DNA from: a virus
IMG/VR virus record: IMGVR_UViG_3300045738_002037
Coordinates: 1-64,000 of that record
Reading direction: 5' to 3' (one strand)
Length of the DNA: 64,000 bases
This document shows positions 1-60,556 of the stretch, in pieces. Each line of letters starts with the position of its first letter. Within the stretch, counting starts at the first letter, position 1. The position numbers and the translations under genes are program-made. The notes under the pieces were generated by a model. That model worked only from the letters and a program-made list of their open reading frames with translations. It did no database searches and was not told the origin of the DNA.

Positions 1-179
1 CAACAGCTAGAAACTACATCATCCCCAAGCCCGTATTCATCCTCAATGTTGTCCAGTGGATTCGTCGAAAGCGGTCGCCGATCTTTAGGGTAGAAAGTCC
101 GACCCGCAAAATTATGGCCAAATTCATGCGGATCTTCCGTAATGAATGCGGCAATATGTTTAATAGTTTTCTTATCCAT
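1..179 (-). CDS. FITEDP-leader protein, truncated by window edge
   Basis: The gene reads leftwards from an ATG at 179 and is still open at base 1, so only the first 59 residues are visible. Residues 2-19 are DKKTIKHIAAFITEDPHE, the same leader that begins the next four genes to the right. The remainder seen is polar, with no recognisable domain. The start lies 14 nt behind the stop of the upstream gene, so it probably belongs to the same leftward transcript. Function is unknown; the leader contains an I-T-E tripeptide that could be a prohead-protease site (inference). Confidence 0.7.
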   Translation of the reverse strand, partial: MDKKTIKHIAAFITEDPHEFGHNFAGRTFYPKDRRPLSTNPLDNIEDEYGLGDDVVSSC

Positions 180-192
180 TTTCTTGCCTATA

Positions 193-486
193 TTATTGTA
201 CAACCAACTTTTCCTGTTGATTCATCTGAAAACGCTTTCCAGAATCTTCGTCGACGATATACCAGTTGTGCATCTGGTTTGGATTCCATCGACGCATATA
301 CTCAACCGCATCTTTAAGCGATTTGAAATTAGCAAAGGCATCGTAAGAACCATTTGCGTGTTTATAAACTCGGAATTTATATCCACCAGGCTCCGGCATT
401 TTGCCCATTGCGGTTTTTTCAGGACCAAATTCATCCGGATCTTCCGTAATGAATGCAGCAATATATTTGATAGTTTTCTTATCCAC
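193..486 (-). CDS. FITEDP-leader protein, 97 aa, GTG start
   Basis: I place the start at the GTG at 486, not at the far upstream ATG, because the shared leader (DKKTIKYIAAFITEDPDEF) begins exactly there. The GTG overlaps the stop of the upstream gene (GTGGATAA), and a GAGAGAGG stretch lies about 9 nt before it, so translation is probably coupled. Residues 30-97 form a compact, aromatic-rich domain (YKFRVYKH near 33, NWYIVDEDSGKRF near 77) that I do not recognise. The reading frame upstream of the GTG comes from a 101-nt GC-rich repeat and is probably not part of this protein. Function unknown; possibly an internal head protein. Confidence 0.6.
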   Translation of the reverse strand: MDKKTIKYIAAFITEDPDEFGPEKTAMGKMPEPGGYKFRVYKHANGSYDAFANFKSLKDAVEYMRRWNPNQMHNWYIVDEDSGKRFQMNQQEKLVVQ

Positions 487-1618
487 CGTGGGGACCCTCT
501 CTCCACGCCTCGCGGCCATAATATTCTCCTGCGTCCGGGCCAGCAGCACCGCCGCCTCTCGCCTGATGGTGCCAGGGTTCTGAGAGTGAGTCGTCTTCTC
601 TTGCCCCAAATTTTTTGTCTTGCCATGTGGCCCCGGTGCTTTGCGGCGGCCTGTCCAGTTGGCCTCTTCGCGGTACAGGCTTAACGGTAATCTGTTTAGC
701 GCCAGCTGATTTGGCAGAATCAATGGCGAATGATAGTTGACCAAGCAGCGGTGTGTCATTGACATTCAAATCTAAGTCCATCATATTTGCGCCTTTAAAC
801 AAAATCCACATGCCTTCGGGCTGCGCGTCAGATGTTAATAATTCTAAGGTATACTCTTCAGGAATATCAGAGCCACCCTGAAACTCATTAATGACTCCTG
901 CCCGCACTAGCCCCTCTCTCCACGCCTCGCGGCCATAATGTTCTCCTGCGTCCGGGCCAGCAGCACCGCCGCCGCCCGCCTGATTCTGCCAGGGTTCTGA
1001 GAGTGAGTCGTCACCGCCGCCCATCGCCTGATCCTGCCAGTGTTGATCGTGATCGTGCTGGGCGTCTTCTCTTGCCTGCAACTCGGTTGCTCCCCAATCG
1101 TTGGCACCTCCCCCTCCCTCATATATCCCCTCGGGTACCCCGGCATCCTGAAGCACCACCTCCAATGCTGGAGATGGCTTGGAGAGCGGTACGTCATCGC
1201 GATTATGCCAGCCGAGGCCAGCACGTTCCGATGCGGCGATAAACGGCTCTCCATCTTTAAGCACAAAATAAATTGGTTTGTACATTTCAGCAGTTCTCCG
1301 CGCATCTTCACTCCCGGTGTCATTGGGGTCATGTGGCGGATCGGGGTTAAAACACCACTTAGTTCCTTCCCCAAGTCTCATTATTTCCTCGACATCATCG
1401 ACGACTATTACTTCGTATGTAATATCTCTATTAGGCCCAACTTGCATAGTAGAAAGAACTTCACGTCCACCTTCCATACCAGGAAGAAGCCGTTGTCGTT
1501 CTTCTTGTTCCATAATATCTAACGGCCCGCCCGATACTTGTAGATCAGGACTAAATTCATTCGGATCTTCCGTAATGAATGCAGCAAGATGGTTAATAGT
1601 GTTCTTGTTCATTTCCAT
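479..1618 (-). CDS. FITEDP-leader protein with GTxWC domain and internal duplication
   Basis: A 379-aa protein. Residues 4-22 are the family leader (NKNTINHLAAFITEDPNEF). Residues about 60-130 carry LGEGTKWCF (W88, C89) followed by YFVLKDGEPF; the same GTxWC then hydrophobic-strand pattern occurs in the gene at 59489-60556. The middle is Gly/Gln/His-rich. A segment near residues 203-235 (DDSLSEPWQNQ, PDAGEHYGREAWREG) is repeated at the extreme C-terminus, encoded by a 101-nt direct DNA repeat 417 nt away in the same frame. GGAG about 9 nt upstream of ATG 1618, inside the end of the preceding gene, supports the start. Function unknown. The C-terminus looks like the product of a recombination event that fused repeat copies. 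Confidence 0.6.
   Translation of the reverse strand: MEMNKNTINHLAAFITEDPNEFSPDLQVSGGPLDIMEQEERQRLLPGMEGGREVLSTMQVGPNRDITYEVIVVDDVEEIMRLGEGTKWCFNPDPPHDPNDTGSEDARRTAEMYKPIYFVLKDGEPFIAASERAGLGWHNRDDVPLSKPSPALEVVLQDAGVPEGIYEGGGGANDWGATELQAREDAQHDHDQHWQDQAMGGGDDSLSEPWQNQAGGGGAAGPDAGEHYGREAWREGLVRAGVINEFQGGSDIPEEYTLELLTSDAQPEGMWILFKGANMMDLDLNVNDTPLLGQLSFAIDSAKSAGAKQITVKPVPRRGQLDRPPQSTGATWQDKKFGAREDDSLSEPWHHQARGGGAAGPDAGEYYGREAWREGPHGG
495..595. repeat. 101-nt direct repeat, copy A
   Basis: Near-identical to 912-1012, offset 417 nt (139 codons) so both copies are read in the same frame of the 479-1618 gene. It is much more GC-rich than the surrounding DNA. This copy encodes the C-terminal end of that gene and abuts the GTG start of the next leader gene, suggesting duplication or unequal recombination. 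Confidence 0.85.
912..1012. repeat. 101-nt direct repeat, copy B
   Basis: Partner of 495-595; differences are scattered substitutions with no indel visible. It encodes the internal Gly-rich PDAGEHYGREAWREG segment of the 379-aa protein. Confidence 0.85.
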
Positions 1619-1621
1619 TTG

Positions 1622-1770
1622 CTAATACTCCAAACCTGACTGAGACATATGTTCTATTGATTCAATATAAGATAAAAACTTTTGTGATTCCTCTCCCTGC
1701 CTTACGCTATCCGCTAACTCTCTTTTCTGGGCTTCTCTCTCTTGAGCATTTACCTTAATATCCGAATGGG
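1622..1770. repeat. 149-nt direct repeat, copy 1
   Basis: Matches 1968-2116 at an offset of 346 nt with few substitutions. It encodes the common C-terminus of two neighbouring leader proteins, evidence of tandem gene duplication. Confidence 0.85.
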
Positions 1771-1933
1771 AGAATGGCTGACCTGGAGTGACTCGTTTGT
1801 GCCCTGCTCGATCCACTCCACCCAGTTGGTCAAACGTCTCTTGGTCAAACGATCCAGTATTAAATTCATCCGGATCTTCCGTAATGAATGTGGCAAGATG
1901 GTCAATGGTGTTCTTATTCATTTTCTTATCCAT
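1622..1933 (-). CDS. FITEDP-leader protein, 103 aa, paralogue of next gene
   Basis: Residues 5-23 hold the leader (MNKNTIDHLATFITEDPDE). The C-terminal 47 residues, from HSDIKVNAQEREAQKREL to SIEHMSQSGLEY, are almost identical to those of the gene at 1968-2336, and the DNA is duplicated too (1622-1770 versus 1968-2116). The tail is charged and probably helical. It sits between two other leader genes with short gaps, in one leftward unit. No known family is recognised. If the leader is a capsid-targeting propeptide, this would be a small internal head protein; that is inference. Confidence 0.65.
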   Translation of the reverse strand: MDKKMNKNTIDHLATFITEDPDEFNTGSFDQETFDQLGGVDRAGHKRVTPGQPFSHSDIKVNAQEREAQKRELADSVRQGEESQKFLSYIESIEHMSQSGLEY

Positions 1934-1967
1934 TTTTATTCTTCTTTCGCAAGAATGTTAGTCTAAC

Positions 1968-2116
1968 CTAATACTCCAAACCTGACTGAGACATATGTTC
2001 TATTGACTCAATGTAAGATAAAAACTGTTGTGCGTGTTGGCCCTGCTTTACGATATCCGCTAACTCTCTTTTCTGGGCTTCCCTCTCTTGAGCATTTACC
2101 TTGATATCCGAATGGG
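1968..2116. repeat. 149-nt direct repeat, copy 2
   Basis: Partner of 1622-1770; both begin at the TAG stop codon (CTA on the plus strand) of their gene. The repeat ends near HSDIK, after which the two proteins differ until the shared leader. Confidence 0.85.
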
Positions 2117-2336
2117 TGTGACCCGCTTCATCCTGCCTCTTCGCTTCCTCCGGGTCGTAGTAGTACTCTTTAATAGTGCCTTTAGGCGGTTGCAAGTTAA
2201 ATTCGCGCGGATCTTCCGTAATGAATGCGGCAAGCTGTTCGATGTCTTTCTTATTCATTTTCATTTTATTCTTCTTTATTTGATCTAGATCTTCATTAAG
2301 AACTTTATCAAGTTTTTGTTCAAATCGGCTGCTCAT
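1968..2336 (-). CDS. FITEDP-leader protein, 122 aa, first gene of left cluster
   Basis: The leader KMNKKDIEQLAAFITEDPRE lies at residues 26-45 if translation starts at ATG 2336, which has AGGG about 7 nt upstream; a second ATG near 2264 would put the leader at the N-terminus as in the sister genes, with AAGAAG upstream. The longer form begins MSSRFEQKLDKVLNEDL. The C-terminal 47 residues duplicate those of the 1622-1933 gene. Being nearest the promoter-like region at 2354-2372, it is probably the first gene of the leftward leader-protein operon. Function unknown. The phrase FNLQPP after the leader recurs in the 1102-aa head-region protein. Confidence 0.65.
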   Translation of the reverse strand: MSSRFEQKLDKVLNEDLDQIKKNKMKMNKKDIEQLAAFITEDPREFNLQPPKGTIKEYYYDPEEAKRQDEAGHTHSDIKVNAQEREAQKRELADIVKQGQHAQQFLSYIESIEHMSQSGLEY

Positions 2337-2856: not shown

Positions 2857-3306
2857 ATGAAATTATCATTAATATCTGAATCTACGGGACGTGATAGGGT
2901 ATTTGCAGATCTATTGCATAAATTGCATGGCCAAGTACCCAATTCGTTGATATTATCGATCAAAAAACTTCACGATAAAAAGAAATCATATCATCCAAAC
3001 GCAGTAAACGTATCAAATCAAGAAATTTATCAACAGTTGTTGGGCGGCGAACGACTACTTGGAATATTAGAACCACATCTGGATGATGAAAACAATAGAT
3101 ACCCACCAAATGGTGTAAGTGATTGTGGCGTCGAGTCATTCCCATCCGAAGATGGGAATGAATATTTAGTAGGTCCTGTGGCCGCAAAGGGCCATGAACA
3201 ATTATGGCAAGATGTTAATGCTTTGCCAAGACCTTCGCATACGATGAATATCGCGTTAGGATTATTGTTTGGATATGATCCAATAGAAATTCAAAAATTT
3301 TTGTAG
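2857..3306 (+). CDS. MKLSLISE-leader hypothetical protein, 149 aa
   Basis: No known family is recognised. The N-terminus MKLSLISE closely matches MKLSLICE of the unrelated-looking protein at 34662-35006; both contain an I-x-E triplet of the kind cut by T4-type prohead proteases. The body is soluble, with Lys-rich helices at residues 15-50 and an acidic middle (EPHLDDENN). The gene ends just before a hairpin terminator and converges on the major capsid gene. It may be an internal head protein targeted by its leader; that is inference. Confidence 0.6.
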   Translation: MKLSLISESTGRDRVFADLLHKLHGQVPNSLILSIKKLHDKKKSYHPNAVNVSNQEIYQQLLGGERLLGILEPHLDDENNRYPPNGVSDCGVESFPSEDGNEYLVGPVAAKGHEQLWQDVNALPRPSHTMNIALGLLFGYDPIEIQKFL

Positions 3307-3388: not shown

Positions 3389-4978
3389 TTACAGATTCGA
3401 AACCGTAATAACACCATAGTAAAGGCCACCATCTTCGATCAACTTCTTGCCGTATCGGGTCATGATGCCCTTATTCGGCGTGAAGCTGTTCGGATCGAGG
3501 ACAGTCGGGGTCGACAACAGTGGAATATACGGAGCATAAAAGTAGCCCGCATCCAACACTGAATTACCCTTGAAGCCCATCAGAATCCGACAATTCGGGA
3601 AGAGTGGGTCCTTGTAGACCTTCATCTTACCCTGCAAGTTACCGACATTCATAATGCCGATGTCAACGCCTTCAGTCGTGAACGCGTCGCTTGCGCGGAA
3701 ATCATTGAGCTGCTCGAACTTGGAACAAACATCAGCGGATGTTACCATCCAGTTCGCAGGACCACGCAAGGTGGTTCTGTGGATGATGTTTGCGACTTCC
3801 AGAGTCTTGTAAAGCAACGCAATGTTACGATCAGTGAAGTTCACTGATGCGCCCGCTGCGGTGGCGAAGTTATGGTCAGCACGAATAGCTGCGGCGATAA
3901 TGAGATCATTAATGATTTCACGATCAATTTCCGCGACCATTTCATCGGCCATCAAGTCGGTTAACGTCGACTCGGCGTCGATGTTATGAACCGCCTTGAG
4001 GTCCTGTGCTGCTTCCAATGACCATGAAGTCTTCAGCTTACGAGTAACGGCAGCAACGCTGTCGCTATCGATGCTAAGAGTGACTTCCGGCTGGAAGGGG
4101 TTAGATTCCAAATCATACTCGTAATTAACGCGTGCAACGGAACCGGTCGGAAGACCGTCACCAGAAGCATCGAGTGTAATTTGAACAACGCCAGTAGCAT
4201 GATTAAATGTCGTAGCACCAGAAGTGGTGGTATCAACAGTAATAGCACTGGTAAAACCAGTCACGCTACCAATCAAAACCGTATCAGGATCGCCATCAGC
4301 ATCAAAGCTGACACGAAGCCCAGGAGTTACGTCAGCGCAAGCCGGATCAGCATTCTCGGCAGAGTCATAGACTTCAACCACTACCGTACCGGAAAGAACT
4401 GGACGATGAGCGAGTGTTGCCGAAACCAGCTTACCTTCAGTGCTGATCGTGGCGTCTTCGCCCTTAACTTCCTGAGAACTGTAGTACGGATCCAACGCCC
4501 AACCGTTCTGACGAGCAAAGCTCTGAGCGGTATTTTGACGCATGATCTGCGTACCAGCAGTCGTTTGGCCCTTAGTAAGAGCGTAACGATACCTGATGTA
4601 AAAAATTAAACTAGCAGGCTGACTCATGGGCTGAACGCCAACGAGATTGTCTGCAATCAACTTGGGATAGGACTTTCGGATCAGAGGGAGAGCAAACCGC
4701 GTAAAGTCGGCAATGTTTGCCGTAGTGGTTTGATCTTCCAAAATGACCGATCGGCCTTCGGGATTCCAAGCATTATACTGATTTTCAAGAAGAGCAGCCA
4801 TCATCCCGAACTTTTGCGTACTGATTTCTCGGCACTTGCTCAGAACTGGCGACCACTTCTTGACCAACTGGTTTCGCTTCGACTCATGTATAACTGCTGC
4901 CTTGTGGAGATCAGTTTGCTCCATGAGCGGGCGACCAGCTGTCCCTTCAGTCAGATGACGACGAGTAGGAAGAGTCAT
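3389..4978 (-). CDS. Major capsid protein, T4 gp23-like
   Basis: A 529-aa protein (T4 gp23 is 521). Diagnostic similarities recalled from T4 gp23 are DNLVGVQPMSQP near residue 110 (T4 FDICGVQPMNSP), KTSWSLEAAQDLKAVHNIDA (T4 YSIELAQDLRAVHGMDA) and DAGYFYAPYIPL near the C-terminus (T4 DAGIYYAPYVAL). LLENQ at 63-67 aligns with T4 IFENQ, and V-I-L-E81/D82 aligns with the T4 cleavage site F-L-T-E65/A66, so an 81-residue propeptide is predicted. A Gly/Asp/Thr-rich segment at about 190-275 corresponds to the inserted domain. ATG 4978 is preceded by TTGGAG. It forms the hexameric shell, matured by the protease at 5834-6571. Confidence 0.95.
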   Translation of the reverse strand: MTLPTRRHLTEGTAGRPLMEQTDLHKAAVIHESKRNQLVKKWSPVLSKCREISTQKFGMMAALLENQYNAWNPEGRSVILEDQTTTANIADFTRFALPLIRKSYPKLIADNLVGVQPMSQPASLIFYIRYRYALTKGQTTAGTQIMRQNTAQSFARQNGWALDPYYSSQEVKGEDATISTEGKLVSATLAHRPVLSGTVVVEVYDSAENADPACADVTPGLRVSFDADGDPDTVLIGSVTGFTSAITVDTTTSGATTFNHATGVVQITLDASGDGLPTGSVARVNYEYDLESNPFQPEVTLSIDSDSVAAVTRKLKTSWSLEAAQDLKAVHNIDAESTLTDLMADEMVAEIDREIINDLIIAAAIRADHNFATAAGASVNFTDRNIALLYKTLEVANIIHRTTLRGPANWMVTSADVCSKFEQLNDFRASDAFTTEGVDIGIMNVGNLQGKMKVYKDPLFPNCRILMGFKGNSVLDAGYFYAPYIPLLSTPTVLDPNSFTPNKGIMTRYGKKLIEDGGLYYGVITVSNL

Positions 4979-5014: not shown

Positions 5015-5740
5015 TTAAATAAGATCTTCATCCATGTCTTTGGCTATGTCGGGAATCCCAAAACCGTCACCGGACGTGCCAGTAACATGGGATTCTTCAC
5101 GTTGCTTCGTAGGATTAGGATCTTGATTTTCCAAAATCGTGGGTCTGGTAGTTACCGGCTTACCAGAACGCCGTTTCGCATCAATTCGACGCGATCTTTT
5201 AGAAGGAGCGCTCTCTTCAACTGTCGATTCAACTTGCACCTGCAGATTCTTATGAATTGTAGACTCTAAGGATCTATTTTTCTTAAGAATCTTTTCTGCC
5301 AGCGCAGTCTGTCGATTAGCAGTTTCAACAGCTAACTTCCTCTCCTCATTTACTGCCTTAACTTGCCGCTTCAACTTCTTTAATTCGGCTTCAATTTCTC
5401 CATCGGGTCGACCATTTGGCTCAATTCCTTCCACAAGGGAAACAATGTCCTTGAGCTTGGCCAGCGCCTGGGATTCTTTAATTGCCGATTGACGAGTTAA
5501 AACAGCCTCCACAGCAGCGGATTTGGTTTCACAGAAAATCTGCACGCGACGAGCCAGTTCTTGCTTATGAGTCTCTGTCTCTTCGACGCAAATCTTTTTG
5601 GCTTCTTCGATTTTTGCTGAGTACTCAGACTCGAACTGCTCTCGGAGCGTTTTCTTGTAGCTTTCTAAAGATTCGCAGATCTGTTGGGACATTTCAGGCT
5701 TTACACCAGATTTTTCCAACAATGCTTTAATCTTTTTCAT
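5015..5740 (-). CDS. Prohead core/scaffold protein, T4 gp22-like position
   Basis: A 241-aa, highly charged, largely helical protein with long coiled-coil stretches (residues 20-175, rich in E, K, Q, A), then a basic patch (SKRSRRIDAKRR near 185) and an acidic end (DIAKDMDEDLI). Location directly between protease and major capsid genes is that of T4 gene 22, the main scaffold protein, which is degraded by the prohead protease. Several LxE/IxE triplets occur (for example LLE at 7-9). TTGGAG stands 10 nt before the ATG, nearly identical to the capsid gene leader. Assignment rests on context and composition, not on a clear sequence match. Confidence 0.75.
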   Translation of the reverse strand: MKKIKALLEKSGVKPEMSQQICESLESYKKTLREQFESEYSAKIEEAKKICVEETETHKQELARRVQIFCETKSAAVEAVLTRQSAIKESQALAKLKDIVSLVEGIEPNGRPDGEIEAELKKLKRQVKAVNEERKLAVETANRQTALAEKILKKNRSLESTIHKNLQVQVESTVEESAPSKRSRRIDAKRRSGKPVTTRPTILENQDPNPTKQREESHVTGTSGDGFGIPDIAKDMDEDLI

Positions 5741-5833: not shown

Positions 5834-6571
5834 CTATTTAAGATCAAAATAATTGTTTATCTCCTTAACTAACATTCGTTCGTAGGTAACCCTATCGAAC
5901 TTACCGCGAGCCTTCCGAATCGGGCGTAACCTATTATTCAAACCCTCTTGAATATTAAGTATTGCTCCATCAACCGAAGGTTCTGCGACAGCATCCCAAG
6001 TTACAAATGAATAACCAGGCATTACTTTGTATTTTTCTTGACCGCCGGATTCAACAACTTCCATGTCGCCAACACCGCGAGAAGAGATCCCAACGCGAAT
6101 TTTGTGCTCAAATAATCCTCGAAGACAAGCACCACACGGTAATCGATGAAGAATTTCAGCTTCACCGTAGACTTTGCGGCCTTCCATCCAAATCTTCGTA
6201 ATCAGATGGCTAACCCTGTCTAAATGAATTTTAGCATCGGCGGGGTGATCGTATTCACCCATAACGCCACGCTTGCCAATATCTTCTTGAATATTTTCAA
6301 CGGCTGGCGCTAAGACATCTTTGGTACTATAAACTCGGCCATTGGCGTTTTCTCTATCGCCTTCCTGGAACAGTCCAGTAACTCTTAGCGACGGCTCTTC
6401 ATTACCGTTTATACCTTCTACCACCACATTTTTAATATCTAGCACATTAAAGGCATATGTGTCACGAATCAACTGCATTCCTGCAGGAATTTCACCTGTT
6501 TCAGCGATTATTTGGCGGTTGATTGGGGTAATCCCCGCCATTGTCACTTTACCACGTCTTGTAGGCAGCAT
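5834..6571 (-). CDS. Prohead maturation protease, T4 gp21-like
   Basis: A 245-aa serine protease of the T4 gp21/herpesvirus-assemblin type. The pattern GEYDHP (His at about residue 111), followed by a strand (HLITKIWMEGRKVYGEA) and then VGISSRGVG (catalytic Ser at about 163), matches the His...Ser arrangement of this family. It cleaves the capsid protein and core at (I/L)-x-E sites inside the prohead. The alternative start MAGITPINRQ at residue 11 is possible; AAGG 10 nt before ATG 6571 favours the longer form. It sits between the 1102-aa protein and the core gene, as in T4-type head operons. Confidence 0.9.
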   Translation of the reverse strand: MLPTRRGKVTMAGITPINRQIIAETGEIPAGMQLIRDTYAFNVLDIKNVVVEGINGNEEPSLRVTGLFQEGDRENANGRVYSTKDVLAPAVENIQEDIGKRGVMGEYDHPADAKIHLDRVSHLITKIWMEGRKVYGEAEILHRLPCGACLRGLFEHKIRVGISSRGVGDMEVVESGGQEKYKVMPGYSFVTWDAVAEPSVDGAILNIQEGLNNRLRPIRKARGKFDRVTYERMLVKEINNYFDLK

Positions 6572-6582
6572 GTTTTATTACC

Positions 6583-9500
6583 TTATCCAGCTTTCGGAGG
6601 TTTAGTACCTGTGCCATCGTCTTTCTTGACTTTCGGCCCAATGCTGTCCAGCTTGTCAAGCTCACCTTTAGACATTTTTACTTTAGGCACTTCTCGCTTG
6701 TCACCGCTAACAAGCTTGGTATACTTGCTACTTTTAGGATCTGTGATGTCTTTATCTTCTGCGACACCTTCCTCCTCCTCTTCTTCCTCTTCTGCTGGCT
6801 CTACTGGCCCTACTGGCTCCACTGGTTCTTCACCACTAACTTCTTCAACACCTTCAACACCTTCAACGCCTTCAACGCCTTCAACGCCTTCAATTTCTCC
6901 ACCTTCCATGTTTTCAAAATCAGGCATTTCATCGGCAACGTCCGCCATCGGCTCTGCTTCTATGTCTGGAGGAACCACAGTATCTACCGGACTCATGTCC
7001 GGAACTTCCGGGACTTCCGGAAGAGCCTCGACGTCACCGGCAATCATGTCATCTCCAACTTCACTAACTTCCACATCCGAATCCACCTCTACCGAGATCG
7101 ACCCATCAGCATTAGCCGTAATAGTTGCTATGGCTTCTTTCAATGCATCATCTTCTTCTTCACTAATTGGCCGCAACTGTTCAATATTAGCAGAAAGCCA
7201 TTCAATGAAAGCGTCTGCATGGCCATCGGATAACCCAGCCGCAGCAAATGCGCTTTCCTGAACTTCTTCTGGCAATGGAACTTCAACACTGCCATCTTCA
7301 CTTAAAATCACTGGGGGAAGCTGAGAATCATTCCCACCATGGTCGAAAATGAAATTAACACCGTTAAATTGACCTGATTTACCGTCAACTTGCTCTTCAA
7401 CCCATTGCAATTCGTTTTCTGCACTCTCTGTTGCGTTAACGCTAGATCTCCTTAGACCCATTCTGCGTCGACGTGTGCCATCCTTGTATTGGTCTTCGCC
7501 CAGATCTTCAACATCTAAACCCTCTTCGCTATCGTTAGTGGGGTCGTCATCCATCTGCTTGTCGGTTAGTTCAGAAATCGGCGGTTGCAAGTTAAAATAA
7601 CTATCGCCCACTTCACTAAAACTACGAACTGCTTCGTCAATAGCCGGACCAATTTTATTATCCGGAATTCTTAAACCGATCGCTTCGATGCTAGCCTTTG
7701 CCAAATCTTCAAGGTTTTCCGCTAATGCTCCGCCCTTGAGATTATTCTCTTCGGCAAGCCTATTCATAATTTCGACAATTTTCGAAAGATCTGAGGAATC
7801 TTCCAAGACTGTGGAACCGTAATCACTCATGTCAATTGATGCGTTATCATTAAAAGCATATGGGTCATGGCTTTCTTCCCATGGTTTACCACTGGTTCTC
7901 TCTTCTTTTTCTTTTTTCAAATTGTCGTAACGCTTACTTCCAACTGCTTTCCCATCATCATCAGAATCATCGGAATCATCATCATCATCATCGGAATCAG
8001 CCCCAAATTGATACTGTTTAAGATGGTCGGCACTTTTTTGCTCGATGAAATACTCGTCGCCACTCCCCGCCACGGGAGCTTCTAGGGAATCGCCGGTTGC
8101 ATCCTTGTACGCTTGAAAGATTTGATCTGCGGTTGCCTTATCAATTCTTGTGCCTTTGGGATATTTGGCGTATATTTTTTTATCCATACTGGCAACCTGG
8201 CGCTCGACGTCTTCACTTAAAGCTTTCTTAGCCCGCTTACTCTCAAACGGAGATTCATCGTCGAACTCTTCTTCCTCCTCTTCTCCAAATTCTTCTTCCT
8301 CTTCTCCACCTAAAAGATCAGCAAGGCTTTCTTCGCCTTCTTCTTCCTCTTCTCCAAGATCTTCTTCACCAAAATCACCAAGATCGCCAAGATCGCCAAG
8401 ATCTTCTCCGCCTTCGCCTTCACCACCAGAAACATTGCTGCCGCCAATTTGAATCAACGGAGCATTAATATTAATAATTGGCGCTCCGCCGCCCTCAACA
8501 TCGAGATCCCCAAGACCCCCTCCAAGATCATCAAGGCCTTCGGATTCCTCATCAGGCATTTCATCGTCGCCGGGCATTATATCAAAATCACTTAGACCTT
8601 CATTGGCCGTAAGTTCTTCTTGAACTGTGGCAATCAAATCTTCAGCTTCATAAATAGCACTATCATCAAACTCAGGATCTTTTAAACGTTCAATAAGATC
8701 ATTAAGTTTAGAAGACATGCCGTGAGATTCTTTAATCTTCGGAGTTTTTTCCTTTAAAACTTGAAGAGTGGTAGCTAGAGCTTCTGCTGTCACTTCTCTA
8801 TTTGAAATGGCTTCGAAAATAAGCTCTAAAAACTTATCATAGGCAGCTTCAAAATTCTTAGTCTCGGCAAGAATGTGAACATTTTCCATAAGGACCGGAT
8901 GTTCTACTTTCTGCGCAATGTTAGTCCATTCTTTAATGATCGTGTCTTTATTAATCTTCAAATTAGTACGGTAGAATAAAGTAGACACATCATTGCACAA
9001 TTGTTGATTAAAACAAGCTTTAGAAGCCAAAACATTTTCAATCAATGTCTGAACTTGAATACGATTCAGAAGCGTAAATTCTTCATTCTCATCTAAAAAT
9101 GGAGAAATGACCTTTACCGCTTCTTCAATTTTATCAGCATAAACTAATTTGGATATACTATAAATGCGATTTTGAAATCCTGGGGACCAATATGCTTCCC
9201 CAGCAGCTTCGCGCATTTGCTTGCCAATTAATTTACGGGCGGCCCATTTAGTAACCGGAAGTTTTACTTCTTCACCATCATTAAATTGGCCCTTAATTGC
9301 GGAACCACCTTCCACAACCACTTTATCACGCAAAGCTTCTACAATAGCAGCAATAATCTTAGGCCGAACATCTTCGTCAATAGAACTACCGCTGGCAATC
9401 TTAACATGCCGCGTAATACCATCTTTAGTTCTCACCATGCCTGAATATGGAATGGCTCTTCCGCTAAATCGCTGCGAAGACATTTTATTAAACGCCGTGC

Positions 9501-9891
9501 CCATGCCCTTTTGATCATTGGCCTCAATAGATTCAACAAGTTTGAGGCAATTTTGCTCAAACAATTGCTGCTTTTCTTCTTCTACAACTAACAAAGGACG
9601 GATATTTTCAATAGTGATCTTTCCGCCTTTTTCACGTTTACAATCAGCAAGAAAATAATCATGGGTATCAGTATCTTCAATAAACAATTCACCAACATAT
9701 TGCTGATTGCGGTTAATTTGCTTAATTTTAAAAGACGCAAGTTGCCAATTTTTACCGGCTGCCTTGCCCATTTCCATTACTTTGTTTTCATAGAAAGTTA
9801 TCTTGGACTGCACTGAATCGTTAAGTGCTCCCAGAAACTTTCGGCTGTCCATTTTAACTGGACTAGCCACTGTTTCTTGATTTTGAGCCAT
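6583..9891 (-). CDS. Large acidic head-module protein, 1102 aa
   Basis: No close family is recognised. Residues 1-400 look globular and helical; from about residue 440 it becomes extremely acidic, with Glu/Asp/Gly tracts, Asp/Ser stretches near 640, and a nonapeptide-scale repeat EGVEGVEGVEG near 1030 encoded by 9-nt units (6844-6892). It contains FNLQPP, also found in a left-end leader protein. Its place between portal and protease corresponds to the small T4 core genes 67/68, so an oversized prohead-core or internal protein is plausible; acidity would suit a scaffold that leaves or is degraded before DNA entry. AGGAGAAG precedes ATG 9891. Function inferred from context only. Confidence 0.75.
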   Translation of the reverse strand: MAQNQETVASPVKMDSRKFLGALNDSVQSKITFYENKVMEMGKAAGKNWQLASFKIKQINRNQQYVGELFIEDTDTHDYFLADCKREKGGKITIENIRPLLVVEEEKQQLFEQNCLKLVESIEANDQKGMGTAFNKMSSQRFSGRAIPYSGMVRTKDGITRHVKIASGSSIDEDVRPKIIAAIVEALRDKVVVEGGSAIKGQFNDGEEVKLPVTKWAARKLIGKQMREAAGEAYWSPGFQNRIYSISKLVYADKIEEAVKVISPFLDENEEFTLLNRIQVQTLIENVLASKACFNQQLCNDVSTLFYRTNLKINKDTIIKEWTNIAQKVEHPVLMENVHILAETKNFEAAYDKFLELIFEAISNREVTAEALATTLQVLKEKTPKIKESHGMSSKLNDLIERLKDPEFDDSAIYEAEDLIATVQEELTANEGLSDFDIMPGDDEMPDEESEGLDDLGGGLGDLDVEGGGAPIININAPLIQIGGSNVSGGEGEGGEDLGDLGDLGDFGEEDLGEEEEEGEESLADLLGGEEEEEFGEEEEEEFDDESPFESKRAKKALSEDVERQVASMDKKIYAKYPKGTRIDKATADQIFQAYKDATGDSLEAPVAGSGDEYFIEQKSADHLKQYQFGADSDDDDDDSDDSDDDGKAVGSKRYDNLKKEKEERTSGKPWEESHDPYAFNDNASIDMSDYGSTVLEDSSDLSKIVEIMNRLAEENNLKGGALAENLEDLAKASIEAIGLRIPDNKIGPAIDEAVRSFSEVGDSYFNLQPPISELTDKQMDDDPTNDSEEGLDVEDLGEDQYKDGTRRRRMGLRRSSVNATESAENELQWVEEQVDGKSGQFNGVNFIFDHGGNDSQLPPVILSEDGSVEVPLPEEVQESAFAAAGLSDGHADAFIEWLSANIEQLRPISEEEDDALKEAIATITANADGSISVEVDSDVEVSEVGDDMIAGDVEALPEVPEVPDMSPVDTVVPPDIEAEPMADVADEMPDFENMEGGEIEGVEGVEGVEGVEGVEEVSGEEPVEPVGPVEPAEEEEEEEEGVAEDKDITDPKSSKYTKLVSGDKREVPKVKMSKGELDKLDSIGPKVKKDDGTGTKPPKAG

Positions 9892-9970: not shown

Positions 9971-11923
9971 TTATGAAGATGTTTTGTCTACAGGCAAATC
10001 ATCTTCAGTAATAATAGAAGATTGAACAATGGGTACCGACCCACCCATTAGAACTCTTTTTATTTCTTTAATTACACTATCACGCTCTTCTTCATCAACA
10101 GACCATTCCACAAGAAGGCCCGGATCATTCGGGTCATATGCACTGTCTTCAGAAATCGTTTTAGTAAGACCATCTAATTCTTTTATTTCCATTAAATGGT
10201 CATAACCGTTTACTATTTCAGGTTTTTCATTATCACCATTGCCAAATCTATCAGCCCATTTCTCAAGTATCTTTTTAACTTCTTTCCTTTGTCCTTGGCG
10301 GGCAAGTTCCATTATTATACGTTTTTCAGCCTTAATATCTAAACCTTCTTCGGCTTCTTCACCACCACCACCGCCGCCCATCAAAGCCTCCAAACCACCT
10401 GTGTCTCCACCCTCTTCTCCACCCTCTTCTCCACCTTCCATGCCTTCTTCTCCACCTTCCATGCCTTCTTCTCCACCTTCCATGCCTTCTTCTCCACCTA
10501 TTCCCATTGCTCCTGCAGGGCCGCCGCCGCCGGGACCACCATTTTTGGCCATATCTTCCATATCTTTTAATTCTTCAATTTCATCTGGCGACAGATCAGT
10601 GAATCTTGTCACAATCCACTCTTTCGGAAACCACCCAAGGTCTTTAAGATCGGCCATAACTCCAACGCGAGTTTGCCATGTTTCTATTCTATACAATTCT
10701 TCCATCGCAGAAGTAGCTGTCAACGCAAGGCTAAACTTTTTAATATCTTCAGCAGGATATCCACGCAATGCCAAATGAACAATGGCTACTTTAGTTAAAC
10801 CAGAAGACACTTCCCTTTGGATCCACTGAACAGATTTGGCAAATTCTGCATGTGATTGAGACAATGATTTTTCATTGGCTTCGCCAGACCCATCGCCAAT
10901 TCCAACCCTAGAAAATGGGATCTTCATTGGGGCAATCATTTTCTTCTTAAAATATTCGATATCTGCTATTTGATCTAAATTTTCAGCACCCGGAAGAACA
11001 TCAATATCTGGGCCAGTGCCGTCTGGTCTACGTGGCAAGAAGAAATCATCTTCTTGAATTAATGGAGAATATCGTTCATCAAATGTGCCGGTTGCTGGAT
11101 TATAAAATCGTTGCCGTTTAAATTGCCTCGCAATCATTTGCATGTATTCAGGCACTTCTTTTGGTGGGATCAAGCCAACCGGTATAATAAACTTCCTCTT
11201 TTCTGGAGCACGCGTAATTCTATAAATTAATGCGGCATCTTCCATCAATCGTAATTGTTTAAATGCTTTTCGGCCACCATCCATAATACTGCGGCCATAT
11301 GGATGATAAATATTCTCAAAACTAGTCAACCGCAAATGCATAACTTGCCATGGATGCATAAAAGTTGGTTCTTGCGTAAATTCATCTTGATAAAAGAACC
11401 CAACTAAATCACCATATCGCGTTTCTACACGTGTAAAATTATAAACATTTATAAATTTTACAGAACCAATGCCATCTCTGTTTTTATCCGGTATTATCTC
11501 AGCCGGAAAGTCACCATACTTACATAAATATCTTATAGCCGGACGACAATAATTGTCCCACTGCAATATGTTAAAAAATAAATCTTCCAATTCTTTCTTA
11601 ATTCTTGAACTTCCCGCTCGAATCACTAATGTGTGCTTTCGTTCAGGGTCAACTAACGAAGTTTCGTCAGCATAAAGATCCAAAGCGAGTGATATCTCGC
11701 CCATTTGATCCATTTGTTCATAATCTTTATAGCGTTCTAACCTATTAATTTGTAGGTTAGTTTGATCAAGAATTGCCGCTTGCTGATTAAAATCTAAAAA
11801 TTCTGCGCCAGCGGTTAGCCTATCCAAAGACGTTTGATCTTGGAATATTCTATCTGCTTGATATATTTTATGCTGACGCGTAAACGCGCGCAGTCTGTCA
11901 AATAACAGCCAATTGCTGGGCAT
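9971..11923 (-). CDS. Portal protein, T4 gp20-like
   Basis: A 650-aa protein (T4 gp20 is 524). Features typical of gp20 are LDLYADETSLVDPERKHTL near residue 80, LFFNILQWDNYCRPAIRYLC, RFKRQRFYNPATG preceded by KRKFIIPVG, and DIDVLPGAENLDQIADIEYF before the MKIPFSRVGIGDG segment. It forms the dodecameric ring at the packaging vertex, docking the terminase encoded just upstream. The C-terminal extension carries tandem GEEGMEG heptads (21-nt units near 10420-10500) and an acidic tail absent from T4. A promoter-like motif lies 23 nt upstream. Confidence 0.93.
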   Translation of the reverse strand: MPSNWLLFDRLRAFTRQHKIYQADRIFQDQTSLDRLTAGAEFLDFNQQAAILDQTNLQINRLERYKDYEQMDQMGEISLALDLYADETSLVDPERKHTLVIRAGSSRIKKELEDLFFNILQWDNYCRPAIRYLCKYGDFPAEIIPDKNRDGIGSVKFINVYNFTRVETRYGDLVGFFYQDEFTQEPTFMHPWQVMHLRLTSFENIYHPYGRSIMDGGRKAFKQLRLMEDAALIYRITRAPEKRKFIIPVGLIPPKEVPEYMQMIARQFKRQRFYNPATGTFDERYSPLIQEDDFFLPRRPDGTGPDIDVLPGAENLDQIADIEYFKKKMIAPMKIPFSRVGIGDGSGEANEKSLSQSHAEFAKSVQWIQREVSSGLTKVAIVHLALRGYPAEDIKKFSLALTATSAMEELYRIETWQTRVGVMADLKDLGWFPKEWIVTRFTDLSPDEIEELKDMEDMAKNGGPGGGGPAGAMGIGGEEGMEGGEEGMEGGEEGMEGGEEGGEEGGDTGGLEALMGGGGGGEEAEEGLDIKAEKRIIMELARQGQRKEVKKILEKWADRFGNGDNEKPEIVNGYDHLMEIKELDGLTKTISEDSAYDPNDPGLLVEWSVDEEERDSVIKEIKRVLMGGSVPIVQSSIITEDDLPVDKTSS

Positions 11924-11976: not shown

Positions 11977-13923
11977 TTACTGTCTTTTGTCAAAATATTT
12001 TCTAGGATCAACAACAGGATTTCCATCGCTTATTGGTATACCACCCAATTGCATCATATATTTCTCCAATTCTCTTTGAGCACTAACATCCGGCAAATCA
12101 TCAATTTCAGCAGCCATAGGCATCAATAATGATGGGCCGCCTTTATCAACAAACTCTTTTTGCATTTCAATAGTAGCAGGTTGGACAAAAAAATCGTCAT
12201 TGTCATTGCTAGTGGCATGTGGCACTAAACTACTAGCATCAACTGAAAATGCGTCCCTAGTACCTATAAACGCAAGTGCTAAGGCCATTACCAAGTCATC
12301 ATGGTTACTAGTGCCTTCTTCAGCTTCAGTTCTGCCAGTATCACGTCCCATCCTGTCTTTTTTGCGAACATAAATTTGCAGTTGTTTTAATAGTCGGCGG
12401 CTTTTAATATCATACCCTTCACCGTCATCTCTAATATTGTCCAACAGCAATTTGTTCAATGTGGCTTTGCTAGACTGACTAGTGAAAAACCCATAATTTG
12501 CGACTTGCAGCGCACGTTGGTGGCTTGATTGACGTGGTTTATCGTTAATGCTTTTTTTACGCCATATTCTGGGATACATCACGTTATAACGTAATTCATC
12601 GATGAGAATGTCGCCGCCATTATTACGCTCAACCACACACAAAGCACAATTATACCAACGCCCGATTCTATCAATATATTTCACCAAATCACGAGGTAAA
12701 CATCTAGTCATAAATTCAGCAACTTGTTCCATAGTATCAATGTCCAACACCTGTATGGCATGGTAATCTTTACCTTTGCCAGTGGCAGTGTCAACACCCA
12801 TAACATAAGAATGAGATGCCGATGGCGATTCTATTATTTTATCATTAAGTCTCTTTTCAGGCGTCGCAACAACTGGCCTTTTCCAAACCCACAATCCTTC
12901 TCCAGGCTCGTTAAATGTGAAATTGAGTTCTTCTGCATCACCACTAACAGGATGCACATAAGTTTGCGAACCAGTTATTTTTTCAAACTCATCGTCAGTT
13001 GTTGTAGACACATGCGCCAATGCTCCCTTAGGTAACACAGTATTACCTGACCCAACAAATGACGCTAAAATTTCTTGCTCAAATTTCCAAGCTTCGCCCT
13101 TATCCTGCAGTGCTTTATATTGTTCTTCTAACCACGGTGACCACCATGGCCCATATTTTTCTATATCAGCTTTAGATTCGCATTTACGTATATCGTCAGT
13201 CGGCGCAATCCTTATGTTCTGGTTAGACAATGGATCTGTGTATTCAATTGACCAGTCCATATCCCACCAATTAATGACAAGAGAATGGAAATTGTTTACA
13301 CCAGCTTCCGCGTCAGTATAAGTGCTCCAATACCAATTGCCTATACCATTAGTTGTAGAAATAACGATAACATTGCCGCCATGCTGTAATGTTGACCAAC
13401 CACCAGCCCATAGTACATCCATATTTTGAATAAATGCGGCTTCGTCGATGATGTTTAATGATGAAGCATTAGACCGAAGTACGTCTGGGTGCGAAGTAAG
13501 CGATCTTATGCTAGAACCATTGGGAAACACTATTTCATGGTCATTTTGTTTAATTGGCTGCCAAAGTCTTTTCATCCACTCTGGCAAATGCTCATACATA
13601 AAAGTTACATTGTTTCTTAAAAAATTCATCGCGTCTAAATCAGTTCTAGATACGATAAGAATTGTCTTATTAGACTGAAACATTGCGAACCATGTCGCAA
13701 ATGCTCCGGCAATTTTAGACGCGCCGGATTGCCGACATTTTCTAAAAATATTAAATCTATGCGTTCTAAAGTGTTTTATAGCAGTCTTTTGATATTTAAA
13801 CGGGCGAAAATCAATAATGCCAGCGCTTGGGTGTTTAACTTTGCCAAAATTACTCAAAAACCAAATTACTGATTGCTGGCACCTTTTTATAATTTGTGCT
13901 TGTTTATTATTAATACTCATCAT
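11977..13923 (-). CDS. Terminase large subunit, T4 gp17-like
   Basis: A 648-aa packaging motor. The N-terminal ATPase has CRQSGASK at 63-70 as a deviant Walker A (Arg64 but no GK[S/T]), and LNIIDEAAF with Walker B D160-E161. The C-terminal RNase H-like nuclease shows VMGVDTATGKGKDYHA (D378), VVERNNGGDIL, and NHDDLVMALALA near 568. It cuts and pumps DNA through the portal encoded next. The start overlaps the end of the putative small-terminase gene by 14 nt, and a second ATG is one codon in. Variant Walker A loops of RQxGAS type are known in other terminases, so activity is expected. Confidence 0.94.
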   Translation of the reverse strand: MMSINNKQAQIIKRCQQSVIWFLSNFGKVKHPSAGIIDFRPFKYQKTAIKHFRTHRFNIFRKCRQSGASKIAGAFATWFAMFQSNKTILIVSRTDLDAMNFLRNNVTFMYEHLPEWMKRLWQPIKQNDHEIVFPNGSSIRSLTSHPDVLRSNASSLNIIDEAAFIQNMDVLWAGGWSTLQHGGNVIVISTTNGIGNWYWSTYTDAEAGVNNFHSLVINWWDMDWSIEYTDPLSNQNIRIAPTDDIRKCESKADIEKYGPWWSPWLEEQYKALQDKGEAWKFEQEILASFVGSGNTVLPKGALAHVSTTTDDEFEKITGSQTYVHPVSGDAEELNFTFNEPGEGLWVWKRPVVATPEKRLNDKIIESPSASHSYVMGVDTATGKGKDYHAIQVLDIDTMEQVAEFMTRCLPRDLVKYIDRIGRWYNCALCVVERNNGGDILIDELRYNVMYPRIWRKKSINDKPRQSSHQRALQVANYGFFTSQSSKATLNKLLLDNIRDDGEGYDIKSRRLLKQLQIYVRKKDRMGRDTGRTEAEEGTSNHDDLVMALALAFIGTRDAFSVDASSLVPHATSNDNDDFFVQPATIEMQKEFVDKGGPSLLMPMAAEIDDLPDVSAQRELEKYMMQLGGIPISDGNPVVDPRKYFDKRQ

Positions 13924-34661: not shown

Positions 34662-35006
34662 CTATTTGCCCCAAATTGCGGTTTTGAATTCACTCCAACC
34701 GCCTGCGTTGCCCATTAGACTGTTAAGAATCCGCCCTCCCACTTGGTCGTCTGTTCCCGCTAACTTAAACGCTTTATCAGACAATTTATAGTGCCCTTCT
34801 TTAACGCCAACCAAAAGTTCCGCTTTATAAGCCGCCTCGAGGTCTTTTTCTTCTATTCCGGCACGATCACGTAAAAACTCACCCGTAAATACTTGCCCTT
34901 TAAGCTGCTTAAGATCTTTTGTGCCATGAGCATCGGCTATTGATTTAATGATCTTTTTTGCTAAATCAGTTTCATAGTGGGCTTCACATATTAGTGATAA
35001 TTTCAT
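34662..35006 (-). CDS. MKLSLICE-leader hypothetical protein, 114 aa
   Basis: The N-terminal octapeptide MKLSLICE is matched by MKLSLISE in the 149-aa protein at 2857-3306, though the bodies look unrelated. The body is helical (LAKKIIKSIADAHGTKDLKQ; EEKDLEAAYKAELLVGVKEG), with a possible winged-helix or HTH-like arrangement. It lies 11 nt after the 35017-35883 gene and 14 nt before the primase. Function unknown; leader processing at I-C-E is an inference. Confidence 0.6.
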   Translation of the reverse strand: MKLSLICEAHYETDLAKKIIKSIADAHGTKDLKQLKGQVFTGEFLRDRAGIEEKDLEAAYKAELLVGVKEGHYKLSDKAFKLAGTDDQVGGRILNSLMGNAGGWSEFKTAIWGK

Positions 35007-57511: not shown

Positions 57512-58147
57512 ATGGAAATTGACCCTAAACAAATAGCTAAGATGATAACGGAAGATCCGGATGAATATGCGGATTTCGAAGATGCTGATGAGTTCGAAAG
57601 CGGCGATCCAGACGGATATACACATTTCCACCCGGCGACCAAAACACTTTTTGAGTTGGGCGAATGCGAAAATTGCGGCAGAGATGTACAAGAAGCAAAT
57701 TCAGTAGGATATGTCAACCCGGACGACGAAATGATGATGATGGGGTACCATGAATATGAAGGTTCGTTACCTCCAGAAATCGCATGGGACGATGCTCTTA
57801 GTAGTGCCACTTGTGGAGAGTGCGGCCATGATCCCACAAGAATATTGGGGGATTTCAAAATAGAGACAAGCAGAATTCCTCCCAGGTCGTCCTGGCTTCA
57901 TGAAGAGAAACATCAGCTACGCCTACTCCGTCCCCGTCAAGGCCCAATTATTCGGAACATACAATGGTCGCCCGCAGCAATCACTATTCAATTTCCCAGC
58001 GGGGAAATCTGGGAATATGTCATTTATGAAAATCGATGGCTGCAAGATCTTTTAAAAAGCCATCGTCGAAATGTAGGGCGTCTCGTGGCTGCTATGAAAA
58101 GAATCCCAAATATTGAAGTTCAACGCGTGTTGGATCTTGAGTCTTAA
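57512..58147 (+). CDS. TEDP-leader protein with zinc ribbon and KTSC-like domain
   Basis: ATG 57512 is chosen because the leader MEIDPKQIAKMITEDPDEYA, related to the left-end FITEDPDEF leaders, starts there; the frame extends farther upstream without a signal. An acidic stretch follows. Then LGECENCGRDVQ and TCGECGHDP give two CxxC pairs, a probable zinc ribbon (residues 50-110). The C-terminus IRNIQWSPAAITIQFPSGEI, WEYVIYE and NVGRLVAAMKRI resembles KTSC (DUF, F-x-x-G-x-x-Y-x-Y plus a final helix). A leader, zinc ribbon and KTSC-like module in one protein is unusual. Function unknown. Confidence 0.65.
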   Translation: MEIDPKQIAKMITEDPDEYADFEDADEFESGDPDGYTHFHPATKTLFELGECENCGRDVQEANSVGYVNPDDEMMMMGYHEYEGSLPPEIAWDDALSSATCGECGHDPTRILGDFKIETSRIPPRSSWLHEEKHQLRLLRPRQGPIIRNIQWSPAAITIQFPSGEIWEYVIYENRWLQDLLKSHRRNVGRLVAAMKRIPNIEVQRVLDLES

Positions 58148-58152
58148 CTAAA

Positions 58153-59484
58153 TTATGTGTAAGTCTCTTCACCATATTCGTCACCATATTCGTCACCATA
58201 TTCGTCACCATATTCGTCAACTTCGAATTCTTCAGGATCTTCAATTAAGGCATTGAGCAAAGAACTCGCTTCTTCCGGATTTTCAATAACAGCAGCGACA
58301 ATCTTATGTAAATGATCGGGTTCTTGTAATGCCAAGGCGGTCACAAGGTCGGCTAAAGAAACGCCTTGAGGTTTCACCTTTAAGAATCGACGCCACAGTT
58401 CTGGCCCAACTTGAATTAAATAAGGTTCATGCCGTATGTCATCAGCATGTGAAAGAACCTGCTCAGTTTCTTCACCATTTAAGTTTCCAAGACCATGGTA
58501 ACTTAAAAGTTCAGCAACACCCTTGCTCATTTCTTGGGCCAACACTGGAAAAACCACACCACGCGCATCTATTTTATAATCATCACTATCTCCGTCTTGG
58601 TTTACATTAGCTGAACCCACAGCAGACATGCCTAGCATAGCAAACATAGCTGGAATATCAATTAGCCAATACATCTGAACCGACAACGATGAAATCCGAT
58701 TATATAAATCCAATAATTCTGGGTCTATTTTCTCTATTTCTTTATCCACCACGTGATGCATCGTCATCATAGCATGCACTGCAGATCCTTGCGTCATTGT
58801 GTTCATGGTCAAACGCTTGTTAATCTGCTTACGCATATTTTCATCGAGTTCTGGCTTCTCTTTTCCTTCTTCATCCTCTTCATTTTTTTCAACATCAGAA
58901 GTAAGACGACCTTCTAGCATCTCTTCCGGGATTCCCCAAATTTGAACTGTTATCTTTTTGGCCAACGCGATAAGTTCATCTTGGTGTTCTGATTCTTTCT
59001 GTACGATTTGGTGCATAATACGCATCATATTTGCGGGGTTGGCGTTTAGACTAGTCACTCTGTCAGTAACATGTTCCCAGGCTCCACGTGACAACTTATC
59101 GCCTAACAAAGCAAGAACCGGATGTTTGGCAAACAGATGCTCTCGATTACTGGGAAGATCCTGCCAAAAGCTTTGTATAGACGGATGCGTTTCATCTTCA
59201 TAGGCTTCGGCTAGAATTGAAACCATGATGTCATTCCCCGACTCCATACAATTCTTGGGCTGCACCTTGCGTTTTGGAACTGGGGGGTGAAAAGGATCTG
59301 GCTTAGAAGGCTTTTCTTGCGGTGGCCTAGATGGGGCTGGCGACGGATAATCCGTACGTCTAGATGGAGAAGGAGCTTCCCTTGCAGGAGCCGGTATAGC
59401 CGTAGCCTCTACATCTTCTACCTCTTGCATTTCTTTTGCAGCAAGAGCTTCATCCAGTTTTTGTTTTAAATTTTTTGATTTCAT
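58153..59484 (-). CDS. Putative virion-associated protein with acidic repeats, 443 aa
   Basis: Residues 1-80 are Pro/Lys/Glu-rich and disordered (SPSRRTDYPSPAPSRPPQEK). A helical body (residues 85-420) contains MRIMHQIVQKESEHQDELIA and TMTQGSAVHAMMTMHHVVDK with no known family. The C-terminus carries LLNALIEDPEEFEVDEYG, similar to the ITEDPDEF leader, and YGDE repeats encoded by 12-nt DNA units at 58171-58218. A related layout appears in uncharacterised phage structural proteins. Converges with 57512-58147, 5 nt apart. Confidence 0.65.
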   Translation of the reverse strand: MKSKNLKQKLDEALAAKEMQEVEDVEATAIPAPAREAPSPSRRTDYPSPAPSRPPQEKPSKPDPFHPPVPKRKVQPKNCMESGNDIMVSILAEAYEDETHPSIQSFWQDLPSNREHLFAKHPVLALLGDKLSRGAWEHVTDRVTSLNANPANMMRIMHQIVQKESEHQDELIALAKKITVQIWGIPEEMLEGRLTSDVEKNEEDEEGKEKPELDENMRKQINKRLTMNTMTQGSAVHAMMTMHHVVDKEIEKIDPELLDLYNRISSLSVQMYWLIDIPAMFAMLGMSAVGSANVNQDGDSDDYKIDARGVVFPVLAQEMSKGVAELLSYHGLGNLNGEETEQVLSHADDIRHEPYLIQVGPELWRRFLKVKPQGVSLADLVTALALQEPDHLHKIVAAVIENPEEASSLLNALIEDPEEFEVDEYGDEYGDEYGDEYGEETYT

Positions 59485-59488
59485 TTTA

Positions 59489-60556
59489 TTAATTTAATGG
59501 GGGCCTACCTTGATAATCTCCGGGCGTGTGGTCTTTCCGCATTCTATTAATTTCAACCAGCGGCCCTTCAGGATCTGATTCAGCCCATTTTCCAAGAGCG
59601 TAGTCCAAACCAATAGAAATTATGTGCAGGCCCTCATTTGAAATACCCATCACTTGCCCGAAACCGCCCGGTTTACCTGACTCAAATTGTATAATCTGTC
59701 CAGATCGCCCGATCTTAGTCGATTTATATTCTGAAGCATCAAATTCAGGGTCTTCTTTTTGATTTTCCATAAAAACAATGTAAAGAGGGCCTTTTTTCAT
59801 ATACTGAGCAGCCTGCCACGCATAGCCTTTTGTACGATCGTACCTGTCTGCTGGCCCTTCTAATAACTTAAAATCCCTAGTTTCCCCCGCTCTAGGATGC
59901 CAATCACCATAAGTAAATTTTGACTCACTATCTGCTATGCCTTCTTGATATCCAGGTTGCCCCGGTCTATTCCTAGCAAGTTCAGTAGTACACCATTGAG
60001 TGCCTCGCCCCATATAAATCGCAGCTTCCGGTTCTGTAATCTTATAAAATTTATAACGAGTTTTATAAATATTCGGAAGCGTTATCTCAAAAACTAATTC
60101 AGCGCCCTTTTTCATATCACGAGATTCTTGTCTTTTAGTAGTAAATTCTTCCTCGCCTAATTCAAGGAATATTTTTCCTAAATTTCGCCAATCTCTTATA
60201 GGTGAATTCTTTTCCCATAGATCAATCGGTAAATTCATACTTTTCCACTGCTGCGTATTTTTATTATTATGAAAAAATTCTAATGTTCTTCTTAGTCTTT
60301 CACCGTCTTCAGGAAGCACTATTGTAGCATTTTTAAGTTGATCAACAATATATCTCAAATATTGTCCTTGCTGATCAGTGGGGTCAAACTCGACTAAAGA
60401 TTCTATGTATTTAGCAACATCATCTCTATTGTCAGCAAATTTATCCTTGTCTACCCAACGGGATTTTTTACCCATTAAGGTATCAACCTGTTTAGCCGCT
60501 TTAACATCAAGCTGCTCTAATATGATGTTCAATTTATTGATAAAATAATCTGCCAT
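59489..60556 (-). CDS. GTxWC-motif protein, 355 aa
   Basis: Helical N-terminus (MADYFINKLNIILEQLDVKA) followed by IYMGRGTQWCTTELARNRPG (W188, C189), a loop rich in Gly and Arg, GPLYIVFMENQKEDPEF and KIGRSGQIIQFES. The pattern G-x-GT-x-WC then (L/I)Y-(I/F)-V is shared with the left-end 379-aa protein and with uncharacterised phage proteins I recall. The Cys and downstream acidic residues may be catalytic. No experimentally known function is assigned. It directly precedes the 58153 gene in the same unit (4-nt gap). Confidence 0.6.
   Translation of the reverse strand: MADYFINKLNIILEQLDVKAAKQVDTLMGKKSRWVDKDKFADNRDDVAKYIESLVEFDPTDQQGQYLRYIVDQLKNATIVLPEDGERLRRTLEFFHNNKNTQQWKSMNLPIDLWEKNSPIRDWRNLGKIFLELGEEEFTTKRQESRDMKKGAELVFEITLPNIYKTRYKFYKITEPEAAIYMGRGTQWCTTELARNRPGQPGYQEGIADSESKFTYGDWHPRAGETRDFKLLEGPADRYDRTKGYAWQAAQYMKKGPLYIVFMENQKEDPEFDASEYKSTKIGRSGQIIQFESGKPGGFGQVMGISNEGLHIISIGLDYALGKWAESDPEGPLVEINRMRKDHTPGDYQGRPPLN

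Follow-up and report, generated by a model that had tools for sequence, protein, structure and literature searches.

A repeated short leader peptide, probably a capsid-targeting sequence, in an uncultured T4-headed phage

Leader genes of the phage record

The stretch of DNA analysed here (the window) comprises bases 1-64000 of the 156,696-bp IMG/VR record IMGVR_UViG_3300045738_002037, which belongs to an uncultured T4-headed phage. We consider a short peptide, the leader, that recurs on several of its proteins. The original prediction placed five leaders within positions 1-2336 and a related one in 57512-58147. All five were present on the minus strand, and the sixth, MITEDPDEY, was found on the plus strand with a profile match. 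The genes are:

3..179, minus strand: leader gene 1 (MDKKTIKHIAAFITEDPHEF), running off the record end
193..486, minus strand: leader gene 2 (leader KKTIKYIAAFITEDPDEF), with a probable GTG start at 486 that overlaps the stop of gene 3
479..1618, minus strand: leader gene 3 (MEMNKNTINHLAAFITEDPNEF), whose body has a GTKWC domain and an internal duplication
1622..1933, minus strand: leader gene 4 (MNKNTIDHLATFITEDPDEF)
1968..2336, minus strand: leader gene 5 (MNKKDIEQLAAFITEDPREF), with its 3' half common to gene 4 and the string TATAAATA at 2361 (minus strand), 25 nt upstream
57512..58147, plus strand: leader gene 6 (MEIDPKQIAKMITEDPDEY), with MITEDPDEY and a body containing cysteines

The leader of gene 5 (1968-2336) lies about 28 residues from the start, unless an internal ATG serves. 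The promoter-like TATAAATA was also found about 40 nt before 57512; another promoter-like string, at 15781, was set aside as it is located inside a gene. The bodies behind the leaders had been described as otherwise different, which is not fully so: genes 4 (1622-1933) and 5 (1968-2336) have a common 149-nt 3' half (91%). Moreover, a 101-nt internal repeat, 95% identical, was found in 479-1618. The five cluster leaders form a 75-nt DNA repeat, whose copies share 77-84% identity with the one taken as reference, and the core DNA TTCATTACGGAAGATCC occurs six times in the record, against none for the reversed control. The leader cluster looks like the product of recent duplication with body swapping. 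The codons ACG GAA are fixed in nearly all of the phage's own copies; ACG makes up 17% of Thr codons, and the relatives use all Thr codons. Within the MITEDP group, the nonsynonymous rate (pN) was 0.054 and the synonymous rate (pS) 0.45 (pN/pS ~0.12), pointing to purifying selection on the peptide at the protein level.

A profile search of the whole record gave 18 leader matches, namely the 5 of the cluster, single ones at 57.5, 94.9, 95.6 and 154.6 kb, three at 125-126 kb and six at 131-134 kb (one partial). A hidden Markov model (HMM) built from the copies retrieved 15 open reading frames (ORFs) at E<1e-12, followed by a gap and one diverged copy at 0.014, this search of the phage's own record being circular for the seed copies. 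Two sub-types were distinguished: KKxIxxLAAFITEDPxEF in the cluster and at 94.9 kb, and [IV]DPKQIAKMITEDPDE[IV]NPLD at 57.5, 125-126, 131-134 and 154.6 kb, of which the 57.5-kb copy diverges in its continuation. The protein at 132301-133959 carries the leader twice in full and a third time in part. The only tRNA found in the genome, a tRNA-Arg (TCT) at 154558-154631 on the plus strand, lies directly 5' of a leader gene.

The leader in related phages

As the original prediction had proposed, related genomes were searched for the leader by profile, and it recurs clade-wide. A DNA scan together with profile searches yielded >70 non-redundant copies over related uncultured contigs, several of them with the same capsid clade; 19 of the 26 searched records contained the leader, with a maximum of 21 matches in one. 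The degenerate DNA scan required ITEDP, so its copies are biased to that string, whereas copies from whole-record profile searches are less biased. The consensus in relatives reads M-N-P-x-D-I-A-[KR]-L-I-T-E-D-P-D-[VI]-[FL]-x-E, and the codons used for it differ from genome to genome, the peptide itself being conserved. Most non-window copies (62/74) belong to the N-terminal class, and genuine C-terminal copies were found in L162, L111:5333, L152 and L179. Among the bodies are a C39 peptidase that also has an AstE-like domain, a cREC receiver, an AAA+ ATPase, a NUDIX hydrolase and a PNK-like kinase (AAA_33), with weak matches to PARP-like/ADP-ribosyltransferase and phosphoribosyltransferase families; many are small zinc-ribbon-like or nucleotide-handling proteins. 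In L078 and L080, a leader-bearing gene sits between the protease and the scaffold. Among isolate phages, tblastn gave one marginal match for the leader and none for the cargo candidate H443 (below), and a literature text search returned no occurrence of the phrase ITEDPD together with phage.

Head genes, scaffold tail and cleavage sites

Family profile matches assign the head genes in the window to the T4 type (Gp23 capsid, S77 protease and T4-type portal). Three genes of the head region bear on the leader:

3389..4978, minus strand: gp23-type major capsid protein, with a putative cleavage site ILE81^D82, [IL][LF]-E being invariant in the clade
5015..5740, minus strand: candidate scaffold in the gene 22 position, with a coiled coil, a disordered linker bearing a conserved T[LI]xE and a C-terminal helix PDIAKDMDEDLI matching the leader
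5834..6571, minus strand: gp21-type prohead protease (Peptidase_S77, PF03420, E=9.5e-17), with a conserved N-terminal [LIV]IAE^TG

In the annotated collection, the nearest phages have capsid proteins with about 30-39% identity to this one; those of uncultured IMG/VR contigs reach up to 94%, which places the phage in an uncultured clade. A 72%-identical capsid protein is encoded on L207 (WJMJ01000154.1), a contig binned as Lokiarchaeota but probably a mis-binned phage; Lokiarchaeota were not trusted as host, the sole genome match being this contig in a Lokiarchaeota metagenome-assembled genome.

The scaffold was identified by its position in the protease-capsid interval and its architecture, without a family match; the annotation of S-SM1 has gp22 at the corresponding position. 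AlphaFold predicted that a disordered linker follows a long coiled coil and leads to a short terminal helix at 230-237, the helix with low confidence (predicted local distance difference test, pLDDT, ~60). Judged from the aligned sequences, the leader shares its invariant IA and acidic end with the C-terminal helix of the clade's scaffold. In the nearer part of the clade the scaffold ends in [IV]xxIAxxM[DE]EDL, and I232/A233 belong to the few columns that hardly vary over 47 scaffold sequences; IA is near-invariant in the leader too. Aligned with hhalign, the leader and the scaffold C-terminus, a chosen pair, reached a probability of 83% (E 8.8e-6), and the scaffold C-terminus ranked first among 359 control windows from six head families. 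By position-specific scoring matrix it was second of 3262 aligned windows. The best leader window fell within the last 24 residues in 39/49 scaffolds, where 4.6 were expected, a result that counts as one motif match rather than 39 since the scaffolds are related. Beyond the scaffold, no leader-like C-terminus in Mel-JY01, RM378 or S-SM1 scored above control.

Hydrophobic-x-E sites are conserved in the clade's capsid protein, protease, scaffold and H443 family. The capsid site, [IL][LF]E^D, lies in the linker that is also the place of cleavage in T4 gp23; the protease has [LIV]IAE^TG and the scaffold T[LI]xE^[SN]. In T4, gp21 cleaves after L/I-X-E, and Asp at P1 of a capsid-targeting sequence (CTS) blocks cutting but not targeting (PMC9026906), while the mature chain of IPI starts at residue 20, directly after STITE (PDB 2jub). 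The window phage keeps ITE in its leaders, and the downstream x-E site is absent. In a 395-kb relative (G007), D replaces E of ITE in 10/18 leaders, and ITDDPD is the reading of most of its leaders. Among non-window leaders, E stands at +5 after P in 37/73, against a background of 8%, and 35 of these 37 have a hydrophobic P3; the copies are partly paralogous, so that the p-value is nominal. This downstream site reads D-[VI]-[FL]-x-E. Considering the ITD of relatives together with E at +5 and its hydrophobic P3, the window phage probably has its cut, if any, at ITE, and many relatives probably have theirs further downstream. Cleavage at ITE^D, which had been proposed for every leader, is thus partly supported: ITE is kept here and T4 IPI starts after the same residues, but relatives often have ITD and a prominent downstream site.

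Two further genes of the window are related to leader-bearing or scaffold-adjacent genes elsewhere:

58153..59484, minus strand: the cargo candidate H443, with homologues in L116, L048 and L049 that have a full N-terminal leader
59489..60556, minus strand: GTxWC-domain neighbour of H443, whose homologue L085:5717-6898 starts MKLSCLVE and adjoins the scaffold gene

The C-terminal LIEDPEEF reported for 58153-59484 is present, but it is without IA, was missed by the profile and is unproven as a leader. In the H443 family a conserved [IM][IL]xE^[AGS] lies ahead of the core (SILAE93^A in 58153-59484), the [IL]xE site being kept while the preceding region is variable. The H443 homologue in L085 is located between the protease and the scaffold. 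A predicted structure of H443 had a pLDDT of 39 and was not used. The GTxWC domain, defined as one domain by a common motif and by phmmer matches for some members, occurs behind the leader (gene 3; L128), behind the short MKLSCLVE start (L085) and behind other starts, and also in L070; with such differing starts, the N-termini seem interchangeable.

Function of the leader

We propose that the leader is probably a capsid-targeting sequence that docks cargo through mimicry of the scaffold tail and is then cut at an x-E site, the body being injected with the DNA. The amphipathic segment x-[IV]-[DN]-P-x-x-I-A-x-[LMF]-I-T-E-D-P would carry the docking, placing cargo on the partner of the scaffold tail (capsid protein or core) during prohead assembly. 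The gp21-type protease would then cut after hydrophobic-x-E in or just behind the leader, at ITE^D here and, for many relatives, at D-[VI]-[FL]-x-E^, and the cut body would stay in the head until it is injected with the DNA into the host. Docking, cutting, encapsidation and injection are all steps that we infer from sequence. Capsid targeting, already suggested by the original prediction, is the best supported reading, given the head module, the unrelated bodies, the scaffold likeness and the gene position, although a sequence match to the T4 CTS is absent.

In T4, conserved CTSs stand on diverse bodies (PMC3012670). The CTSs of IPI, IPII, IPIII and Alt, which are cut by gp21, are alike in being a short peptide on unrelated bodies with L/I-x-E sites, putative in the case of the leader, in a genome with a gp21-type protease, and IPI is cut after I-T-E, the same tripeptide as in the leader of the window phage. 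The leader likely works like a T4 CTS. It differs from the latter in being longer, resembling the scaffold C-terminus, having many more copies per genome and occurring also C-terminally. In P22 particles, cargo is loaded by fusion to the scaffold; that fusion is engineered, whereas the resemblance deduced here is natural. The C-terminal helices of the P22 scaffold anchor on the inner procapsid (PMC9965877). A 30-residue N-terminal segment of P1 DarB directs a reporter to the capsid (PMC9024508), but this is an unrelated system with a single protein. In the giant phages SPN3US and phiKZ, a gp21-related protease cleaves off head propeptides behind a short x-E motif, and a targeting role has been proposed for these (PMC5694885, PMC10052503); in contrast to the leader, they are mostly much longer and have the motif A-x-E, and no common peptide on many unrelated proteins is described in the passages considered here.

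Several results weigh against this proposal. Some leader copies are C-terminal or internal, and several of the 26 searched records have this capsid with no leader match. The leader search gave 0 matches in T4, RM378, Mel-JY01, SP-15, S-SM1 and two uncultured jumbo phages; at the sequence level, then, it shows no homology to the T4 CTS. The downstream x-E site is missing in about half of the leaders, and DP and the acidic residues are conserved more strictly than a protease site requires. A test for closer similarity of leader and scaffold C-terminus within than between genomes detected no covariation (p=0.36; 12 genomes, low power). T4-type late-promoter strings numbered 33 genome-wide against 23 expected, with no clear promoter link.

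Among the alternatives, it is somewhat unlikely that targeting is real but the leader uncut, ITE and the downstream x-E forming a docking surface that stays on the packaged protein. This explanation shares targeting with ours and departs from it solely over cutting; it accommodates the ITD variants, the C-terminal copies and a conservation exceeding the cleavage consensus, yet E at +5 with its hydrophobic P3 is sharply prominent, and H443 keeps [IL]xE while the region before it varies. We consider it unlikely that the leader docks its proteins on some other phage complex (in replication or transcription) or on a host target, and that they are ordinary intracellular early or middle proteins rather than virion cargo. 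The dispersed leader genes of G007 and G000, the many small zinc-ribbon-like or nucleotide-handling bodies and the lack of a clear late-promoter link fit such a role, but the scaffold C-terminus likeness, the L078 and L080 leader genes flanked by protease and scaffold and the hydrophobic-x-E behind the leader argue against it. Finally, a DNA-level unit (recombination hotspot or translation leader) serving cluster duplication and body swaps without targeting would explain the 75-nt repeats, the 17-nt core identical in six copies, the ACG GAA nearly fixed despite the low share of ACG and the common 3' halves, but is very improbable, since the genomes encode the conserved peptide with freely differing codons, pN is far below pS, and C-terminal copies are incompatible with a translation leader.

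Beyond capsid targeting by single leaders, we tentatively suggest, as possible rather than probable, that the clade loads a large and changing effector set through copies of the scaffold docking helix, at either protein end and often with a protease site, all using the same prohead sites. If the leader mimics the scaffold tail, it would offer a concrete partner for the T4-type CTS, whose target is given as the scaffolding core, without being settled, in the papers considered here. The leader could also serve as a search handle, marking dozens of uncharacterised proteins of uncultured phages as probable injected effectors, and counter-defence and host-takeover functions would be expected among them.

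The remaining features of the window are:

2857..3306, plus strand: protein with a short MKLSLISE N-terminus, possibly a second leader class
6583..9891, minus strand: 1102-aa protein between portal and protease, clade-conserved, with acidic low-complexity sequence
9971..11923, minus strand: gp20-type portal protein
11977..13923, minus strand: terminase, a weaker match

N-termini of the form MKL[SN]xIxxE were found in the window at 2857 (plus strand) and 34662-35006 (minus strand), in the genome at 81589 (plus strand) and at 95652, 129384 and 129941 (minus strand), and in relatives too; they are possibly another targeting leader. The portal reading frames of L019, L020 and L029 look interrupted, which suggests inteins. 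A 5285-aa single ORF lies outside the window at genome 96202-112059 on the minus strand (L008/L009), neither half having a Pfam match. The phage also encodes a sigma-70-type factor (regions 2 and 4) at window 60742-61566 on the minus strand, and a 162-nt tandem repeat of 2.6 copies occupies window 28237-28662, within a 1192-aa gene.
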